From Pseudomonas brassicacearum (GTDB taxonomy: Bacteria; Pseudomonadota; Gammaproteobacteria; Pseudomonadales; Pseudomonadaceae): a stretch of 64,000 bases of DNA. A program made the translations under genes and the position numbers. Every line of letters starts with the position of its first letter. Within the stretch, counting starts at the first letter, position 1. Location of the stretch: contig NZ_CP007410.1 in the NCBI RefSeq assembly GCF_000585995.1, positions 1,577,430-1,641,429 on the forward strand, in the 5' to 3' direction. The notes beneath the pieces are model-generated. The model made no database searches, was not told where the DNA came from, and saw only the letters and a list, made by a program, of their open reading frames with translations. This document shows positions 13,171-58,653 of this stretch, one piece after another.

Positions 13171-13260
13171 GGTGGGAGCGGGCTTGCTCGCGAAAGCGGT
13201 GGCACATTCAACCTCTCTACTGAATGTTCAACCGCTTTCGCGAGCAAGCTCGCTCCCACA
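13171..13260. repeat. REP doublet (GAGCTTGCTC type)
   Basis: Inverted pair GTGGGAGCGGGCTTGCTCGC ... GCGAGCAAGCTCGCTCCCAC between the convergent acpH and olsA genes. Confidence 0.85.
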
Positions 13261-22729: not shown

Positions 22730-22820
22730 TGTGGGAGCGAGCTTGCTCGCGATGGCGGCGGCACATTCAGCATTGCTGCAAGCTGACCCACCGCTATCGC
22801 GAGCAAAGCTCGCTCCCACA
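22730..22820. repeat. REP doublet between lemA and the TPM gene
   Basis: TGTGGGAGCGAGCTTGCTCG ... CGAGCAAAGCTCGCTCCCAC; the right arm has one extra A. It lies inside the presumed lemA operon, between genes on the same strand. Confidence 0.85.
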
Positions 22821-43662: not shown

Positions 43663-44262
43663 GGCCTGCCTCCGTTGATGACGAGGCAGTGAGGCCGAGA
43701 GTTGAACAAATGATTGAAAAGCGAGTTGCTGTGCATTGTCTAGCTCCTTGACGTCTGGAGCTGCCACTTTCGTTCCAAGCGAATGGGTGGCAGCTGTGCG
43801 CAGGTTGGAAACCGGGAGTCAAGGAAACCGGCACGCCCAAAGGCGTCCCACGCACAGCCGCCAAAAACACAAGTTTACAGGCGTAAAACTACCTCTGCAC
43901 TTGTGAAGGCGTGCGGTTTCGTGACTCACGGGTTTCCAAGCCCGATCGCTGATTTGCAGCGACATCTGGAGAGTAGCCATCGAAGGGCAAGGGCAACAAG
44001 GCGAAAACTCGCCGAAAAGCAAAGTAAGCGCACCCCCTACGCAGTTTTCGGATTCTGCCTACAAATTTCCCGGGGCGTACGCAACTCTCTGAGTTTGCCT
44101 ACAAATTCAGGAGGAGCCGCCCGCTATCCACAACTGCGTAGATAGGAAATAGTGCTCCGTACGGACTATTCGATTGGCATTGCGATTGACGTTCGACAGA
44201 TTTTGCCGGCTGCGCAGAAAGCGACGCTTAGGGCGATGGCTTAAACCCTGGAAGGATGATCA
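43663..44262. other. 600 bp gap with a structured element
   Basis: No gene is supported. The block 43789-43937 is full of paired sequences: GGCAGCTGTGCG with CGCACAGCCGCC, GGAAACCGGGAGTCAAGG (43807) with an imperfect inverse copy at 43915-43937, and AGTTTAC with GTAAAACT. It could be a leader RNA of the DUF3077 gene or a mobile repeat. 43940-44262 shows two related stretches (ATTCTGCCTACAAATT and GAGTTTGCCTACAAATTCAG) and presumably the promoter of the next gene. Confidence 0.5.
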
Positions 44263-45026: not shown

Positions 45027-45100
45027 TGGAGCGGGTGAAGGGAATCGAACCCTCGTTATCAGCTTGGGAAGCTGGAGTAATGCCATTATACGACACCCGC
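45027..45100 (-). tRNA. tRNA-Gly(CCC)
   Basis: Minus-strand cloverleaf: acceptor stem GCGGGTG / CACCCGC, anticodon loop TTCCCAA (anticodon CCC), T-loop GGGTTCGATTCCC, and encoded CCA end. It resembles E. coli tRNA-Gly(CCC). No integrated element is seen at either end. Confidence 0.95.
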
Positions 45101-48229: not shown

Positions 48230-48318
48230 TGTGGCGAGGGAGGTTGCTCCCGTTGGGCCGAGAATCGGCCCAACGCGTCTGCTTCGAAGCCGAGCGGGAG
48301 CAAGCTCCCTCGCCACAG
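48230..48318. repeat. REP doublet (GGAGCTTGCTCC type)
   Basis: TGTGGCGAGGGAGGTTGCTC ... GAGCAAGCTCCCTCGCCACA, with one mismatch (G for C) in the left core. Follows the guanidine operon 3' end. Confidence 0.85.
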
Positions 48319-48326
48319 GTTCAGCT

Positions 48327-50105
48327 TTATTCCAGGCTACGCAGATAAGCCCGCCATCCCCCCAGATGGCTGATGTCCCGTGCGCCCTCCAGGCCATACG
48401 ACTCACAGATGAATCCGCTCTCCCAGCGGCCATCGGCCAGTTGCACCTTGCCTAGCCCCAACGGTGCGGGAATGCCAGCCAGGAACGAGCCCAGTTCGCT
48501 GCTCGGCAGTTCCCAGACCTCAACCTCGATCGCCACGCCGCCCTCACTGACCCGAAGCATGCCGGGGCGCAGGGGTGGGCCGCCGGCCAAGGCATGGAGG
48601 CGGTAATCCGCTGAGCTTTGGGTGGCTTCGATCAGACGGGCGCCGCGCTGCTTGAGCTGCCAGTTCAGCGCCAACCCGTCCAGGTGCGCGCCACACACCA
48701 CCAGCCGCGCTCGGTCGTGGCGCGCCGGGTGGGTGGGAACGGGCAAGGCCTTGTTCTGTTGACGCTGCAAGGCATCGGCCACGCTCAAGAGGTATTGATC
48801 GGTGAACGCTCGACCGAACAGCGTCACGCCCCAGGGCAAACCATTGGTCATGAACGCGCTGGGAACGGCGACGGCGGCGTAGTCCAGCAGGTTCATGAAA
48901 TTGGTGTAGTAACCCAGTTCTGAGTTGCGCAGCACCGGTTCGGCGGTGAGTTCGGCGAGGGTCACCGGGCGCCCGATGGTCGGTGTGAGGACGCAATCAA
49001 GCGCGTCCATGGCCTGGTCGCATTGGGCTTTGAGTGCTTGCAAACGGTAGCGGGCGCGGAAGGTTTGTACGCCATCCACCGTAGGCGCTTTCGCCAATAC
49101 GGCGCGGATGACGGGTAGGACGGCGTCGGGCTCGCGCTCCATCAATGGGCCGGCAACGCTGTAGCGTTCGGCCACCCAAGGGCCCTCATAAAGCAGTCGG
49201 GCGGCTTCCAGGAACGGCGACAGGTCCAGTTCCACGGCTTCGCCGCCCAGACGTTCGAGTCGCTCGATGGCATCCAGAAACAGTTGCGGACCTTCAGGAC
49301 AGCCAAAAAACTCCAAGTCTTGCTGGCGCGGCACACCGAAGCGAAAGCGCCGAGGCGCGCCGAACGCGGCGCCATCGTTCCACTGCGGGTTGTGGCGGCT
49401 GTAGTCGTCACGAGGGTCTCGACGGGCCGTCAGCGCCAACAGCTGGCTGGCTTCCTTTGCTGTCGCCGTAAAGGTCGTGACGCAGTCCAGCGTGCGACAG
49501 GCCGGGACTACGCCCGCCGTGGAGAGCAACCCCAGGGTGGCTTTCAATCCCACCAGATTGTTCAGCGCGGCTGGCACCCGACCGGAGCCGGCGGTATCAG
49601 TGCCCAAGGCAAAACTTGCCACGCCCAAGGCCACGGCCAGTGACGAGCCGGCGCTCGAACCGCCTGCCGGATAGCCGGGCAGCACGCTGTTGCGGCAGGC
49701 GCCGTAGGGCGAGCGAGTGCCATTGAGCCCGGTGGCAAATTGGTCGAGGTTGGTCTTGCCCAGGGGGATCGCGCCCATCGCCAGCAACTGTTCGACGATG
49801 GTGGCCGAACGTGGCGGCACATAGGCAAACGCCGGGCAGGCTGCCGTGGTCGGAATGCCGGCCAGGTCGATGTTGTCCTTGATGGCAAAAGGTACGCCGT
49901 ACAGCGGCAGGCTCTCCAGGTCGCGGCCTTCCAACGCGGCCAGGTAAGGTTCCAGTTCCTCAACCGTCAGCAGGTGGATGAACAGGTGATAGTCCGGGTT
50001 CAGCGCCGCGGCTTTTTCCCGCAGGTCCAACAGCAATTTGCGAGGTGTCAGTTCGCCGCTGCGGTAGGCATTGCGCAGGTCGTCCAAGCGAAGAGAGAGG
50101 TTCAT
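48327..50105 (-). CDS. atzF: Allophanate hydrolase
   Basis: A 592-residue amidase-signature enzyme that splits allophanate into ammonia and CO2, the last step of guanidine/urea breakdown. The triad is intact: Lys76 (VPFAIKDNID), cis-Ser150 (AGGSSAGSS) and nucleophile Ser174 (TDTAGSGRVPA); the spacing of 74 and 24 residues equals that of AtzF. The C-terminal AtzF-type domain (from about residue 465, LVVCGAHLDGLALNWQL...GFICESYGLEGARDISHLGGWRAYL) is present. 22 bp after the carboxylase, in the same operon. Start at MNLSLRLDDLR. Confidence 0.94.
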   Translation of the reverse strand: MNLSLRLDDLRNAYRSGELTPRKLLLDLREKAAALNPDYHLFIHLLTVEELEPYLAALEGRDLESLPLYGVPFAIKDNIDLAGIPTTAACPAFAYVPPRSATIVEQLLAMGAIPLGKTNLDQFATGLNGTRSPYGACRNSVLPGYPAGGSSAGSSLAVALGVASFALGTDTAGSGRVPAALNNLVGLKATLGLLSTAGVVPACRTLDCVTTFTATAKEASQLLALTARRDPRDDYSRHNPQWNDGAAFGAPRRFRFGVPRQQDLEFFGCPEGPQLFLDAIERLERLGGEAVELDLSPFLEAARLLYEGPWVAERYSVAGPLMEREPDAVLPVIRAVLAKAPTVDGVQTFRARYRLQALKAQCDQAMDALDCVLTPTIGRPVTLAELTAEPVLRNSELGYYTNFMNLLDYAAVAVPSAFMTNGLPWGVTLFGRAFTDQYLLSVADALQRQQNKALPVPTHPARHDRARLVVCGAHLDGLALNWQLKQRGARLIEATQSSADYRLHALAGGPPLRPGMLRVSEGGVAIEVEVWELPSSELGSFLAGIPAPLGLGKVQLADGRWESGFICESYGLEGARDISHLGGWRAYLRSLE

Positions 50106-50127
50106 GGGGTTAATCCTTTGATTGAGT

Positions 50128-53100
50128 TCATTCACGTTCCAGCACCACGACGCGCTGTCCGGCGCGCACCGCCGAACCGGGCTGGACGCGCACCTCGCGC
50201 ACCACGCCGGCCGAGGGCGCAAGCACCGGGATTTCCATCTTCATCGACTCCAGAATGACCAACACATCGCCGGCGGCGACCCGAGCACCAACCTCCACCT
50301 GAACCTGCCAGAGGTTACCGGCGATGTGGCTGTCGACGCTCAGTTGAGTCTCGGTCAGCAGCGAATCTTCGCTCGGCGCGATAGCCGGTTCTTCGCTGTC
50401 GAAGTGCGCCTGGCCACTGGCGATCCAACGCTCGCGCTCGGCGTCGAAGGCGCCTTGTTGCCGCTGCCGGAACGCGGCGATGCTGTCAGCCTCCTGTGCC
50501 AGGAAACGCTGGTAGTCAGCGAGGTTGAGTTGGCTATCCTCAATCTCCAGGTCGAAGCGGCCCAGCGGGAAGTCCCGGCGGATGCGCAACAGTTCATCGG
50601 CGCTGACCGGGTAAAAGCGGATCTGGTCGAAAAACCGCAGCAGCCAGGGCTTGCCGTCGAATGCGGCGACGTCCCGATATCGATTCCACATCTGCAACGT
50701 GCGCCCGACGAACTGATAGCCGCCCGGGCCTTCCATGCCGTACACGCACATATAGGCGCCGCCAATGCCCACCGAGTTTTCCGCGGTCCAGGTCCGGGCC
50801 GGGTTGTATTTGGTGGTCACCAGCCGATGCCGTGGGTCCAGTGGCGTGGCGACCGGCGCGCCAAGGTAGACGTCCCCCAGGCCCATCACCAGGTAGCTGG
50901 CGTCGAACACCGTGCGCTGCACTTCATCGAGGTTGGGCAGGTCATTGATGCGTCGGATGAACTCCAGGTTGCTCGGGCACCAGGGTGCGTCCTTGCGCAC
51001 GGTGGTCATGTATTTCTCGATGGCGAGTTGGCAAGCCGGATCGTCCCAGGACAATGGCAGGTGGACGATGCGCGACGGCACTTGCAGATCCTGCGCGGCG
51101 CACACCGCGTCCCATTCCCCGGCGACGATGGCCAGCAGATCGGCCAGGGGCAGTTGCTCGGGTTGATAGTGCACTTGCAGCGAGCGAATGCCCGGCGTCA
51201 GGTCGATCACACCGTGCAGTTGTTTGTGTTCCAAAGCCTGCATCAAGGCGTGGGCGCGAAAGCGCAGCACCAAGTCGAGTTCGGGGGCGCCGATTTCCAG
51301 CAGCAGGTGGGTGTCGCCGGACAATCTCGCCACCAGGCGCGTATCGTCCTGGCCGATATCCAATACCACAGGCGACCCCCATTTCTGTGTGCACCCAAAA
51401 CCTGTGGCGAGCGAGCTTGCTCGCGCTGGGTCGCGAAGCGGCCCCAACTCTTTATCGGTAGGACCATGGTCTGGCGAGTGCTGCGCACTCGAGCGGGAGC
51501 AAGCTCCCTCGCCACAAGGGATGTGTGTCGCCAATGAGCGGGCGGTCGATACATCCACCGGCACAAACCGCACCTTGTCCCCAGCCTTGAGCTGCCCCAA
51601 TTGCCAAAGGTCCGCCTCGATCACCGTCACCGGGCAGACGAAACCGCCCAGGCTCGGGCCGTCGGGGCCGAGGATGACGGGCATGTCGCCGGTGAAGTCC
51701 ACGGCGCCGATGGCATAGGGATTGTCATGGATGTTGGAAGGGTGCAGGCCGGCCTCGCCACCGTCGGCGCGTACCCATTCAGGTTTCGGCCCGATCAGTC
51801 GTACGCCAGTGCGGCTGGAGTTGAAATGCACTTCCCACGCCGTGTCGAAGAAGGTCTGGATGTAGCGCTCGGTGAAATATTCGGGTGCGCCGTGGGGGCC
51901 GTAGATCACGCGGATCTGGCGCACGCTTGGCAATTCGAGGATCGGCGCGCTGGTTGGCGCCGGGGTCGTGTGCTCATCCAGCGGTGCCAGGTGCAATACA
52001 TCGCCGGTGCACAACGCCCGTCCGCCATGACCGCCAAACTGGCCGAGGGTAAAGGTGCTTTTACTGCCCAGGTAATCCGGCACTTGTACGCCGCCTTGCA
52101 AGCACAAGTAACTGCGCGCCCCGGCCCCCGAGATGTTGCCGATCGCCAGGGTGGCGCCGGCACGAATCGACAACGGAGTGTTCATCGGCACGGCTTCACC
52201 GTCGAGAGCGAGGGCAATCACCGCGCCAGTCACGGCGACCCGGGCATCGCAGTTGAAGCGCAGCAGCGGCCCGTTCATGGTGATTTCCAACGCCGCGGCC
52301 CCTTCTTCATTGCCCAGCAAGCGATTGCCCAGGCGCAACGAGCGGCTGTCCATCGGTCCCGACGGTGGCACCCCCACCGCCCAATAACCGAGGCGGCCGG
52401 GATAGTCCTGGACGCTGGTCTGGGTGCCGGGGCTGAGCACTTCAACGGTGTGGGCGCGATAAACCAACGCCTCCAGGCAACGGGTCCAGGGCTGGCCGTT
52501 GGCAAACGGTGCATCGAGGAGAATCTGTTGCAGGTAGCCGCGATTGGTTTCGACGCCGTACAGCAGGCTTTCATCCAGCGCTTGATGAAGGCCCAGGCGC
52601 GCTTGCTCGCGAGTCGGCGCCCAGCGAATGACTTTTGCGATCATCGGATCGAAGTAGGGCGGGATCTGGCAACCGGCCTCGACCCAGGTGTCGATGCGCA
52701 GCTGTTTGCCGTCGGCGTCCGGGAATTTCACGGCGGTCAAAAGCCCAGGGCTTGGCTGGAAATCCCGGCCTGGATCTTCGGCGTACAGACGTGCCTGAAT
52801 CGCGTGGCCCTCGGCTTTTAAACCCTCGCTCAACTCGTTCAGTGGCGGTAGGTCTCCGGCAGCCAGTTGCACCATCCAGCGCACCAGGTCCACGCCCCAC
52901 ACCTGCTCGGTGACGCCGTGCTCCACTTGCAGGCGGGTGTTCACTTCCAGGAAGTAAAAGCGCCCCGCGTCGCTGTCGAACACGAACTCCACGGTGCCGG
53001 CGCTGCGGTAGTTCACGGCCTTGGCCAGTTGGATCGCCGCCGCGCAGAGCGCGTCGGCCATGCCCTCGGGCAGGTTGGGGGCTGGGGTTTCCTCGAGGAC

Positions 53101-53808
53101 TTTCTGGTTGCGCCGCTGCACCGAGCAGTCGCGCACGCCCAAGGCGATCACCTGGCCCTGGCCGTCGCCGAACACCTGTACCTCAAGATGCCGCGCGCGT
53201 TCGATGTACTTCTCGATGAACACCCCGGCATCGCTGAAGTTGTTCTGGCCCAGGCGCTTCACCGCTTCGAAGGACTCGCTCAGTTCGGTGGCGCTGCGGC
53301 ACACGCGCATGCCGATTCCGCCGCCGCCGGCGGTGCTTTTGAGCATCACCGGATAGCCGATCTGTGTGCCGGCCAACAGCGCGGCGTCGAGGCTGTCGAG
53401 CAGTTCGGTGCCTTCGAGCAGGGGCACGCCGTGTTGCCGCGCCAGGTCGCGGGCGGTGTGCTTGAGACCGAACACGCGCAGTTGTTGTGGCGTCGGACCA
53501 ATGAAGGCGATCCCGGCCGCCTCGCAGGCTTCGGCGAAGGCTGCGTTTTCCGAGAGAAAGCCGTAGCCGGGATGAATCGCCGTCGCGCCGCTGCTTTTGG
53601 CAATCGCCAGGAGTTTGTCCACCGCCAGATACGTATCGACCGCCGCGCCTTCGCCCAGGCTGTGGGCTTCGTCGGCCTGCAAGATATGCAGGCTGGCGGC
53701 GTCGGCTTGGGAATACACCGCGACGCCTTGGACCTTCAGTTCGCGCAGGGTGCGCAGGATGCGACAGGCGATGGCGCCACGGTTGGCGATGAGGATTTTT
53801 TCGAACAT
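50128..53808 (-). CDS. Guanidine (urea-type) carboxylase, with REP-encoded insert
   Basis: A 1226-residue biotin-dependent, ATP-dependent carboxylase. Biotin carboxylase domain at residues 1-445 (FEKILIANRGAIACRI; ATP loop STAGGGGIGMRVC). KipA/AHS2-like domain about 470-760 (GYWAVGVPPSGPMDSRSLRL). Then a foreign segment (about 764-803) encoded by a REP doublet, followed by a KipI/AHS1-like domain about 810-1040. Biotinyl domain at the C-terminus with Lys1190 in VILESMKMEIP. Pipelines would call it urea carboxylase, but the riboswitch and deiminase genes point to guanidine. The frame stays open through the REP, so the enzyme may work with a loop at the AHS2-AHS1 junction. Confidence 0.9.
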   Translation of the reverse strand: MFEKILIANRGAIACRILRTLRELKVQGVAVYSQADAASLHILQADEAHSLGEGAAVDTYLAVDKLLAIAKSSGATAIHPGYGFLSENAAFAEACEAAGIAFIGPTPQQLRVFGLKHTARDLARQHGVPLLEGTELLDSLDAALLAGTQIGYPVMLKSTAGGGGIGMRVCRSATELSESFEAVKRLGQNNFSDAGVFIEKYIERARHLEVQVFGDGQGQVIALGVRDCSVQRRNQKVLEETPAPNLPEGMADALCAAAIQLAKAVNYRSAGTVEFVFDSDAGRFYFLEVNTRLQVEHGVTEQVWGVDLVRWMVQLAAGDLPPLNELSEGLKAEGHAIQARLYAEDPGRDFQPSPGLLTAVKFPDADGKQLRIDTWVEAGCQIPPYFDPMIAKVIRWAPTREQARLGLHQALDESLLYGVETNRGYLQQILLDAPFANGQPWTRCLEALVYRAHTVEVLSPGTQTSVQDYPGRLGYWAVGVPPSGPMDSRSLRLGNRLLGNEEGAAALEITMNGPLLRFNCDARVAVTGAVIALALDGEAVPMNTPLSIRAGATLAIGNISGAGARSYLCLQGGVQVPDYLGSKSTFTLGQFGGHGGRALCTGDVLHLAPLDEHTTPAPTSAPILELPSVRQIRVIYGPHGAPEYFTERYIQTFFDTAWEVHFNSSRTGVRLIGPKPEWVRADGGEAGLHPSNIHDNPYAIGAVDFTGDMPVILGPDGPSLGGFVCPVTVIEADLWQLGQLKAGDKVRFVPVDVSTARSLATHIPCGEGACSRSSAQHSPDHGPTDKELGPLRDPARASSLATGFGCTQKWGSPVVLDIGQDDTRLVARLSGDTHLLLEIGAPELDLVLRFRAHALMQALEHKQLHGVIDLTPGIRSLQVHYQPEQLPLADLLAIVAGEWDAVCAAQDLQVPSRIVHLPLSWDDPACQLAIEKYMTTVRKDAPWCPSNLEFIRRINDLPNLDEVQRTVFDASYLVMGLGDVYLGAPVATPLDPRHRLVTTKYNPARTWTAENSVGIGGAYMCVYGMEGPGGYQFVGRTLQMWNRYRDVAAFDGKPWLLRFFDQIRFYPVSADELLRIRRDFPLGRFDLEIEDSQLNLADYQRFLAQEADSIAAFRQRQQGAFDAERERWIASGQAHFDSEEPAIAPSEDSLLTETQLSVDSHIAGNLWQVQVEVGARVAAGDVLVILESMKMEIPVLAPSAGVVREVRVQPGSAVRAGQRVVVLERE
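51403..51516. repeat. REP doublet inside the carboxylase reading frame
   Basis: TGTGGCGAGCGAGCTTGCTC ... GGGAGCAAGCTCCCTCGCCACA: the left palindrome has a GAGCGAGCTTGCTCGC core (mixed between the two REP classes) with flank GTCGCGAAGCGGCCCC, the right arm is the GGAGCTTGCTCC class. 114 bp, a multiple of three. Minus-strand translation gives CGEGACSRSSAQHS ... DPARASSLATG, without a stop codon. Confidence 0.92.
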
Positions 53809-54111
53809 GGCATTGCCCCCTCAGGCTTGCGTGCTGCCTGAACTGGGATGCGGGCCGTCCCGCAGTTTTCGATGGCCGCCGGGGTCGTCCCTGGCGGCGA
53901 AACTTCCAAACATCACTGCGCCCCTTGTGGGAGCGAGCTTGCTCGCGATAACGGTGGTACATCCAACATCAATGTGACTGACAGACCGCTATCGCGAGCA
54001 AGCTCGCTCCCACAGGGGATGGGTGGTGTTCATGAATCTGTGTTTATTTGATGCACTGCCCCGACCGGCTCTGGCACAACGCAAACAACCAGCGCCGCAG
54101 GCGGGTGAGTT
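53809..54111. other. Gap inside the guanidine operon
   Basis: 303 bp between the second deiminase gene and the carboxylase, unlike the very short spacings elsewhere in the operon. It holds the REP doublet 53926-54014. The remainder shows no supported gene. Confidence 0.6.
53926..54014. repeat. REP doublet (GAGCTTGCTC type)
   Basis: TGTGGGAGCGAGCTTGCTCG ... CGAGCAAGCTCGCTCCCACA within the operon gap. Confidence 0.85.
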
Positions 54112-54753
54112 TCAGTTCCATATCAGCAGCTCCGCAGGCGTCGGGTTGTAGGCGTTGCACGGGTTGTTCAGTTGCGGGCAGTTGGAGATCAACACGATCA
54201 CGTCCATCTCGGCCCGCAGGTCGACGTATTTGCCCGGCGCCGAGATCCCGTCTTCGAAGGTCAGGCCGCCATCGGCGGTGACCGGCACGTTCATGAAGAA
54301 GTTGATGTTCGGCCCGATGTCGCCCTTGCCCAGTCGACCGTCGTGGGCGCAGGCCCGCAGGTAGTTGTCACGGCAGCTGTGCATGTAGCGTTTTTCCAGG
54401 GCGTAGCGCACGGTGTTGCTTTCCTGGGCGCAGGCGCCGCCGAGGGTGTCGTGGCGTCCACAGGTGTCTTCGACGATGGTCAGCATCGGGTGGCCGAGGT
54501 TGGAATACAGCACGCTGCCGGTGCTCAGGTAAACGCTGTTTTGTCGGCGCAGGGTGCGTTGCACGTCGTAGCGTTCCTTGGGGTTGGCCAGGCTGTAGAA
54601 CAACGTATCGACGGCTTGGTTGCCTTCCAGGTCGAGAATGCGCAGGGTCTGGCCTGCCTTGACCTCCACCAGCCACGGCTCCCCGGCGGGAATGGTGGCG
54701 CGGTAGATAGCGGTGTCAGGCTGCTTGTGTACGGTGGCGATGGCGAGTGACAT
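54112..54753 (-). CDS. cgdB: Carboxyguanidine deiminase subunit (UAAP2 / DUF1989)
   Basis: A 213-residue DUF1989 protein long annotated as urea carboxylase-associated protein 2. Conserved signatures: [48 protein letters not shown], and [20 protein letters not shown]. With its paralogue it is now known to hydrolyse carboxyguanidine to allophanate and ammonia. The A/B letter is assigned from gene order and memory and could be swapped. 11 bp after the partner gene. Confidence 0.88.
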
Positions 54754-54764
54754 GGCGGCGATCC

Positions 54765-55490
54765 TCAGGCGAACAGGCGGTCGGTGTTGATGAAGCCGCG
54801 CTGGTTTTCCGGGCGCGAAAGGCGGCAGTGCTCGGCGACGCTGGCGTCAGCATTCATCCAACTGAGCTTGAGCGGTTGCGGGGCGTAGTGCGGGTTAGGG
54901 TCCATCGGGTGTTGCAGTGCGGTCAGCACCACCAGGGTGTCCATCGGCGCGTACAGCTCGATGTAGTCGCCGGTCAGGGAGTTGCCCTCGACGAAGTGAA
55001 AGTTTCCCGCCTCATCGACATCGACCCGGCTGAACAGGTTGAGGGTCATCAGCAGGTCGGACAGGCCCAGTCCCCATTTGCCCAGTTCCACCAACAGGTT
55101 GTCGGTGCCGTTGCGAAAGAAGCCGTTGCGCAGTTCCTGGTAGCGGCCCTGACCGTATTTTTGCGCGACTTCCTCGGCGCAGAGCACGCCGCCCAGGCTG
55201 TCACTCCAGCCGCAGGTATCGGCGGTGATTGCCGCCAGTACCCGGCCCATGTCCGAGTACAGGCAATGGCCGGCGGTGAGTTTGGCGGTGTGTTGGCATT
55301 TGAGGCTGTCGGGCAGGTTCAAGCGTTCGGTTTTCTCGTTGGCATTGAGCAGCGTCAGGCTCACGTTGGCCCCGCCGCGCAGATCGGTCAGGCGCAGCAG
55401 TTGGCCGCGCTTGAGTACGAAAGAACGGTGGCCGCCACCGGGCAGCAGTTCTTCGGCGAAGGGCGTAAACAAGCGGGTCGAGTCGGTCAT
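54765..55490 (-). CDS. cgdA: Carboxyguanidine deiminase subunit (UAAP1 / DUF1989)
   Basis: A 241-residue paralogue of the next gene with the same DUF1989 motifs: [56 protein letters not shown] and the late [17 protein letters not shown]. The start at 55490 has AAAGGAG eight bases upstream and gives the family length; a longer in-frame reading is unsupported. 13 bp after the ATPase gene. Expected to act with the other subunit on carboxyguanidine. Confidence 0.88.
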
Positions 55491-55503
55491 GGAAAAACTC
55501 CTT

Positions 55504-56292
55504 TCAAGCGATACGCAAGGTGCCGGCCAGTTCGGCGGGCAGGGCGTCGACGGCGGCACGGGCGGTGCGGCGGTCGCTGTTCAATGGAATGTCGTAGGTG
55601 ATGCGGGCGCCATAGGCGCCGGGGGCGTGCGGGTCGACACGAACCTTGTCGAACACCAACAGGCGTGTGCCGAGGCTGAAGCCTTCGGACAGGTCATGGG
55701 TGACCATGAACACGGTCAGCCGGGTTTCGCGCCACAGCTCCAGCAACAGGGCGTGCATGTCTTTGCGAATGCCCGGGTCGAGGGCGCCGAAGGGTTCGTC
55801 CAGCAGCAGGACCCGCGGCTTCATGATCAGTGCCTGGGCGATAGCCAGTCGCTGTTGCATGCCCCCGGACAGTTGCGCCGGGTATTTATCCAGCGCATGA
55901 CCCAGGCCGACCTTGCCCAGCAGATGCGCTGCGTCTTCCCGGGCCTGGCGTTTGGCGTTGCCGAACAAGCGGCCCAGCAGCGGCGAGCGCGGCAACTCCA
56001 GGCCCAGGGTGACGTTGTCCAGGACCGTCAGGTGCGGGAACACCGAATAACGCTGGAACACCACGCCCCGGCTGGCATCCGGCTCACCGGCCAAGGGCTC
56101 GCCATCCAGGAGAATCTGTCCGCGACTGGCGCGCTCCTGGCCCAGTAGCAATCGCAGGAAGGTCGACTTGCCGCAACCCGACGCCCCCACCAGCGTGCAG
56201 AACTCCCCCTCGGCGACCCTCAGGTTCAAGCGCTCGAGCACCACCTGATCGGCGTACTGCTGCCAGACGTTGTTCACGGTAATGAAACTCAT
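55504..56292 (-). CDS. ABC transporter ATP-binding protein (guanidine operon)
   Basis: A 262-residue ATPase of the SsuB/TauB kind. Walker A GASGCGKST, signature LSGGMQQRLAIA, Walker B RVLLLDEPFGALD and the switch His in MVTHDLSEGFS are all in order. It overlaps the permease gene by 4 bp. With the neighbouring permease and binding protein it forms an importer; the substrate is inferred to be guanidine from the riboswitch and catabolic genes. Confidence 0.93.
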   Translation of the reverse strand: MSFITVNNVWQQYADQVVLERLNLRVAEGEFCTLVGASGCGKSTFLRLLLGQERASRGQILLDGEPLAGEPDASRGVVFQRYSVFPHLTVLDNVTLGLELPRSPLLGRLFGNAKRQAREDAAHLLGKVGLGHALDKYPAQLSGGMQQRLAIAQALIMKPRVLLLDEPFGALDPGIRKDMHALLLELWRETRLTVFMVTHDLSEGFSLGTRLLVFDKVRVDPHAPGAYGARITYDIPLNSDRRTARAAVDALPAELAGTLRIA

Positions 56293-58244: not shown

Positions 58245-58345
58245 CTTGTCTCCCGGGCTTTTGTCCCGCCGTGTAACCTCAACTGGAGGTCGCCAACTCT
58301 CGGACCAGCCACTCGCCAGAAGCGAGCCGGAACCCTAGTCAGCCA
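58245..58345 (-). promoter_or_regulatory. Guanidine-I riboswitch (ykkC class)
   Basis: Read on the minus strand, the region carries the conserved pieces in the right order: CTAGGGTTCCG, then GGCTGGTCCGAGAGT, GACCTCCAG, and finally ACACGGCGGGACAAAAGCCC followed by GGGAGA. These match the guanidine-I (ykkC) consensus as I know it. It lies about 60 bp ahead of the binding-protein start, so it should switch the whole operon on with guanidine. The boundaries are approximate. The 58346-58653 stretch upstream has no supported gene; it presumably holds the operon promoter and that of the divergent lipoprotein gene. Confidence 0.93.
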
Positions 58346-58653
58346 TTGCAAATTGTGGTGCCGCGAACCTGTGATGACTCCTGCACGGAGTTTGTTAAAG
58401 CGAGAGCCGTGCCAATTACGGCAAAGGCCCGGGCCAGAGAGGGCAGGTGTCGGGGAAGGAGGATTGAGGGCGGATTTATGCTTGCTTGTGGTGCTGTCGC
58501 GCACCGGAACAGGGCGACGAGCGACATGTTTCTAGTTGTTGCCAGGTCGCACCAGATTCCGATTTTGCTGTCTGAGTAGTTGTCAGTCACACAACGTTGA
58601 CTGCCGCCCATCAGCGTCGCTGATGTGGCTCATTCGCGGTCCAGGAGGCCGCC

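Follow-up and report, generated by a model that had tools for sequence, protein, structure and literature searches.

REPs are normally intergenic, and those of Pseudomonas are treated as extragenic in the available text of the studies that describe them (PMC3116915, PMC3686654). In the stretch of 64,000 nucleotides from Pseudomonas brassicacearum analysed here (the window), however, a complete REP pair stands inside the reading frame of a carboxylase gene. This raises the question whether the pair is a lesion of the guanidine pathway or a tolerated linker insertion, the two readings offered by the original prediction, and whether this place in the gene was struck only once.

The 114 bases at 51403-51516 make up codons 765-802 of the minus-strand CDS at 50128-53808, in frame and stop-free, between the CT_A_B and CT_C_D domains, which bears out the predicted in-frame, translated REP pair at this position. 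The 38 residues that they encode include 6 Ser, 5 Ala and 2 Cys (for all coordinates see Table 1). The arms were assigned to classes by comparison with the 22 published P. fluorescens REP classes, PF1-PF22 (table in PMC3686654), and both belong to PF17, with 0 and 2 mismatches; PF17 is listed there with a RAYT of SBW25. Since REPINs are same-class REPs in inverted orientation with a high genomic copy number, the insert is a REPIN on both counts: the genome of the window holds 656 exact PF17 heads, and the insert as query gives at least 83 matches in it, counted over 40 scored places out of 1087 candidates. It departs from the usual extragenic location, which is typical of REPINs and not a sequence criterion. 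As far as the REPINs of fluorescent pseudomonads are described in the available text of PMC3116915 and PMC3686654, the window insert is like them in its PF17-type arms, inverted pairing and many copies; it differs in being intragenic and translated, and in that its orthologous sites carry different classes. The RNA of the insert with short flanks (51398-51522) folds at -69.6 kcal/mol (z -6.4).

Table 1. Features of the carboxylase locus, in positions of the window.
Feature	Position	Strand	Basis or remark
Guanidine (urea-type) carboxylase, 1226 aa, TIGR02712	50128..53808	-	profile match; Asp704
REPIN (PF17-class REP pair)	51403..51516	-	codons 765-802, translated CGEGACSRSSAQHSPDHGPTDKELGPLRDPARASSLAT
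First REP arm in gene direction	51492..51515	-	exact PF17 consensus
Second REP arm, inverted	51404..51427	+	PF17, 2 mismatches
Inter-domain linker (the slot), residues 752-811	51376..51555	-	ortholog alignments
CT_A_B domain (PF02626), residues 478-750	51559..52377	-	domain search
CT_C_D domain (PF02682), residues 828-1047	50668..51327	-	domain search
Codon 704 (Asp)	51697..51699	-	opposite Asn1330 of K. lactis urea amidolyase (5i8i) in the alignment
Guanidine-II riboswitch, preceding the carboxylase gene	53850..53896	-	RNA family match
Guanidine-I riboswitch, upstream of ABC transporter ATPase gene (55504-56292)	58248..58349	-	RNA family match
Allophanate hydrolase	48327..50108	-	gene of the operon
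UAAP2 / DUF1989 (TIGR03424)	54112..54753	-	family and domain match
UAAP1 / DUF1989 (TIGR03425)	54765..55559	-	family and domain match
Intergenic PF8 REPIN pair, between UAAP2 and Guanidine-II riboswitch	53927..54013	.	REP class matching
Intergenic PF17 REPIN pair, 3' of allophanate hydrolase	48231..48316	.	REP class matching

The operon had also been described as hit three times. The two neighbouring REPs are real, but both are ordinary intergenic REPINs, and the carboxylase REPIN alone is intragenic. Among the 18 REP elements in the window, 17 were judged intergenic. Three of these (741-962, 13172-13259 and 22731-22753) are spanned by an open reading frame that was judged spurious by its neighbouring genes, two of them also lacking a Pfam hit. 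No other intragenic PF17 doublet was found in the genome among 41 doublets in 34 stretches, one of which lies in the window. Six of the 41 have an open reading frame reaching at least 60 codons on both sides (8 frames). A Pfam scan of three of these frames and of two window frames gave a single hit, wholly to one side of the REP, and the remaining five were dismissed on visual inspection as antisense frames or genes starting after the REP. In the gene next to the carboxylase, one REP match was found in 98.5 kb (55 loci), which was counted as intergenic because such REPs directly follow the stop of the allophanate hydrolase.

Orthologs were collected from whole Pseudomonas genomes and from named records, by similarity to the window protein and not at random. 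A match was found in 217 of 398 genomes at the cut-off, of which a subset was fetched, and removal of identical copies left 234 distinct sequences from 291 loci; homologs from outside the genus (7 with Asp704) are excluded from the counts. A set of 200 sequences, which includes 8 identical pairs, served for inverted repeats, residue 704, dN/dS and pair comparisons, and the main counts were repeated with the set of 234.

The gene in which the REPIN lies belongs to the TIGR02712 family (1911.5 bits, cut-off 1303.85) and encodes a biotin carboxylase domain, CT_A_B, CT_C_D and a biotin carrier domain. Its residues 761-822 are unaligned to the K. lactis urea carboxylase (3va7), and the insert falls within this stretch. 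The orthologous gene in relatives carries the name 'urea carboxylase'. Residue 704, which we take to be the specificity-determining position meant by the published Asp/Asn rule, is Asp in 200/200 orthologs and Asn in all seven homologs of the other type (six of them Pseudomonas, one of another family); the linkers of these seven have a constant 39 residues and are without REPs. According to the available text of PMC12186494, the substrate residue is Asp in guanidine carboxylases and Asn in urea carboxylases. The genomic context likewise is that of a guanidine carboxylase, with a guanidine-II riboswitch in front of the gene, and DUF1989 (carboxyguanidine deiminase) genes and a guanidine-I riboswitch upstream. 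The two riboswitches and the gene content match the guanidine carboxylase operon published in PMC12186494, as does the Asp at the presumed specificity residue; the linker REP present here is unmentioned in the available text of that paper.

The window gene is thus predicted, from its sequence, to encode a working guanidine carboxylase. The core of the protein is under purifying selection (dN/dS 0.05-0.09 in 12 ortholog pairs), and the linker gathers nonsynonymous changes freely (e.g., dN of 0.24 between L009 and L040, vs 0.03 in the core). Among the genome matches listed in the screen, no stops were found in the carboxylase. One genome, 78% complete (G351), has an internal TGA in its carboxylase match and an open linker. 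Plasmid records gave 28 matches, and among the five listed only the conserved carboxylase part is represented, in Pantoea. A normally intergenic element in a catalytic gene could point to damage, newly acquired by this strain, to the guanidine pathway. We attach practically no probability to such a lesion, since the frame is open, selection is purifying and related species have a similar PF17 element at the corresponding position; a pseudogene reading was rejected on dN/dS and open frames. The other reading of the original prediction, a tolerated linker insertion, is supported by the position of the insert between the two CT domains of an enzyme under purifying selection.

A comparison across the genus shows that the idea of an isolated hit was wrong. 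A published REP class is found in the same linker of 164 of the 234 distinct Pseudomonas orthologs (at most 4 mismatches, 22 classes), mostly of classes other than PF17. The number falls to 136 with at most one mismatch and to 106 with exact matches, and both arms have at most one mismatch in 88. Loci from drawn genomes alone give 134/189 distinct sequences with a REP. In total, the 234 linkers hold 309 class matches in 32,184 bp, vs three in the remaining 815,253 bp of these CDSs, all three weak, at 4 mismatches; chance is therefore ruled out for the linker REPs. This recurrence in independent genomes also excludes an assembly error. The classes in ortholog slots include PF3, PF4, PF8-PF14, PF18 and PF19, where labels among near-identical classes (PF8/PF10, PF3/PF14) hinge on tie-breaking. 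Homologues in unrelated strains with the same residues at this place had been named as evidence against an insertion. Such evidence exists in part: closely similar PF17 residues do occur at the same linker site in relatives (L039, L040, identical to L065 of P. thivervalensis, and the proteins P0001-P0007), and most other sampled Pseudomonas have a REP of another class there.

Some linkers (L107, L113, L116, L128, L194, L198, L201 and L202) carry another palindromic family, outside the 22 PF classes, which translates as SPLPLAGEGPGER or alike and SPSPQPSPxxGRG. In one genome (G308), the contig C365 with locus L347 stops at the slot, so that the intragenic repeat may break draft assemblies.

The linker is also richer in REPs than the 350 nt in front of the gene. 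At no more than 2 mismatches, 78 named loci have 95 REPs in 11,574 bp of linker (52/78 loci), a sparser 75 in 27,300 bp of the 350 nt upstream (43/78 loci) and none in the remaining 273,201 bp of the CDSs. When up to 4 mismatches are allowed, 90/119 linkers and 76/119 of the 350-nt regions upstream of the carboxylase start are occupied. In 30 of the 74 loci with both REPs present, the best class is the same upstream and in the slot. In 153 of 200 orthologs, no inverted repeat of the gene is stronger than the one in the linker. Linkers with a REP have a median length of 47 residues, and those with neither a REP nor a strong inverted repeat 29.5, within a range of 11 to 76 residues. The REPIN might be kept for a function, either as an mRNA hairpin that would slow ribosomes between the domains or as a linker of useful length, in line with the strong fold of the window hairpin, the higher occupancy of the linker than of the upstream region, and a REP or strong inverted repeat in 194/234 orthologs. 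Yet 40/234 have neither, classes and lengths vary freely, and nonsynonymous changes build up in the linker. We consider such a function very unlikely.

A change of occupant can be seen in close orthologs, in which the linker may differ strongly while the remaining gene is conserved. Between L097 (PF3) and L161 (PF8), core identity is 97.0% and linker identity 0.70; a few flank substitutions aside, divergence starts inside the outer TGTRGGAGC and ends at its mirror image. Similar class changes separate L022 (PF14) from L182 (PF10; core 95.7%, linker 0.71) and L010 (PF9) from L043 (PF8; core 95.6%, linker 0.75), and L052 (PF17, 66 aa) and L064 (PF4, 40 aa) have a linker identity of only 0.43 at a core identity of 95.6%. 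Of 48 close pairs (core identity at least 93.5%), 13 fall below a linker identity of 0.70, with a mean core of 0.943 and 300-nt flanks of 0.938/0.924, and the other 35, at 0.70 or more, average 0.81. On the rest-of-gene tree, 145 tips require no fewer than 77 class changes, vs 102 with shuffled labels, and 234 tips 24 changes of occupancy, vs 61. The changes are fewer than in the shuffled sets, yet many, which indicates descent plus high turnover.

Occupants are stacked and lost as well as replaced. The 117-residue linker of P. viridiflava L101 (isolate p4.B4) has four stacked same-direction arms besides a first arm, and that of P. avellanae L118 a pair plus one more arm. The stacked arms of L101 are about 72 nt apart and are translated as repeated SRASSLLQG-like blocks. 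Near-empty linkers of 22-24 residues occur in four sequences known as proteins only (P0072, P0073, P0087, P0089), whose relatives at 92.6-94.5% identity have occupied linkers of 47-60 residues. The exact empty site that had been predicted for close relatives was not found among the fetched loci, and the 15 nearest orthologs (core identity of at least 0.876) all carry REPs.

A single old insertion in the common ancestor of the genus, with arms mutated in place under retained complementarity and class differences due to drift, could account for part of this pattern. Of 130 gene-strand REP arms (at most 2 mismatches), 124 begin in one common codon phase, some loops (e.g., EVDAVSD..APS) are found with more than one kind of arm, and the class labels keep a phylogenetic signal. 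Drift from one founder is difficult to reconcile with pairs at 95-97% core identity whose arms, loop and length may all be different (L052/L064), with arms that exactly match published classes in 106/234 orthologs, and with differing arrangements, such as the reversed arm order in L103, L105 and L115 and the stacked arms of L101. Hence a single old insertion appears very improbable.

The class in the slot follows the REP population of the host. We counted six REP heads in 64 hand-picked genomes of the P. fluorescens complex. A single degenerate pattern covered PF3 and PF4, and the six do not include PF11 and PF18, among others; 12 genomes whose slot lacked an exact match to any of these heads were dropped. 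Among the remaining 52, the slot class is the commonest of the six counted classes in 37, vs a mean of 10.3 and a maximum of 22 in 10,000 shuffles. Relatedness was controlled for with 18 disjoint pairs of relatives that differ in slot class (core identity at least 0.88, picked greedily from the most similar down), whose counts favour the own slot class in 17/18 (sign test, p 0.00014). The one pair that deviates is that of the window's genome and G196 (log-odds -0.19); PF17 ranks only second of the six classes in the window's genome. The slot element of G288 has a full-length copy of 94% identity elsewhere in its genome. Its sister G244 holds a 91% copy of the same G288 element, so copies are not strictly genome-specific. 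The best full-length copy of the slot element of G244 in its own genome reaches 82%; not all slot occupants are young.

This tracking of the host REP population does not by itself tell the mechanism of the swaps. Class differences could alternatively come from homologous recombination of the orthologous segment between species instead of copying within the genome. The window and L039 (core identity 88.0%) share PF17, and the nearer L041 (93.8%) has PF8; as a weak hint in the same direction, the window and L039 linkers differ at 13/180 bases, compared with 12% in the core and 9-10% in the adjoining 150-nt windows. Residues beside the PF17 element are also common to the window and L039, a weak hint either of exchange or of loss in L041. 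Exchange of whole segments fits poorly with 300-nt flanks near core identity in class-switched pairs, with a slot class that goes with the own genome's REP counts in 17/18 pairs, and with the near copies of the G288 element within the G288 genome. We regard between-species recombination as an unlikely general source of the class differences.

We interpret the window insert, with considerable confidence, as a REPIN in the length-tolerant linker of a working carboxylase, a standing slot in which REPINs are gained, replaced, stacked and lost, and which usually holds a class abundant in the host. A linker between separately folding domains would tolerate inserts of widely ranging lengths; it is probably disordered, and the insert neutral. 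With hundreds of REPs per genome, such a linker may be struck, refilled and sometimes emptied while the frame is kept open. Frame-breaking inserts would be lost, and the broken genes would rarely enter an ortholog sample. Insertions elsewhere in coding DNA are presumably mostly purged, and hence the slot would stand out. The swaps may occur by copying from the genomic REPIN population, either by a RAYT transposase or by recombination between dispersed copies, to which exchange between species may add. A more specific scenario, which appears distinctly unlikely to us, would be a semi-domesticated docking site: an element-specific REPIN exchange that recognises the outer TGTRG ends would repeatedly convert the site to the ruling REPIN, the linker would evolve by cassette exchange, and the hairpin would possibly be kept as an aid to domain folding during translation.

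Intragenic REPs as such are already known. The available text of PMC3733652 on intragenic GTAG/CGTC REPs reports REP dimers within ORFs, names flexible linkers as neutral places, and mentions different REPs at about the same recB site in two Xanthomonas species, one of them X. campestris. The window insert resembles these as a REP dimer in the tolerant linker of an ORF; it differs in that one slot is traced here through 234 orthologs within a genus, and that its class is replaced in line with the host REPs. The words 'carboxylase' and 'urea' are absent from the main text of that paper. The Rickettsia palindromic elements noted there, with in-frame insertion in likely functional proteins, are likewise palindromic and in frame, but belong to other organisms and element families and are an analogue only. 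Intragenic slots are unmentioned in the available text of PMC8049555, and no report of a recurrently refilled REP slot was found in the literature searched, which consisted largely of papers outside subscription.

REPIN turnover is hard to trace, as intergenic sites align badly over long times. In the carboxylase, conserved coding flanks fix the position of the slot across species, so that a tree can give the order in which elements arrived, were replaced by other classes, were stacked and disappeared, and the spread and replacement of REPINs become testable. The slot is also a case of a protein segment supplied by mobile palindromes and differing between species in an enzyme still under selection. 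Variation in such a linker can reflect the history of the element and not protein adaptation, which is to be kept in mind when linkers of this kind are compared.

Elsewhere in the window, a C4 antisense RNA with an a1/b1 target element was observed near a tRNA (43783-43976 and 45030-45100). RNAs of this kind occur in P1/P4-like phages and satellites.
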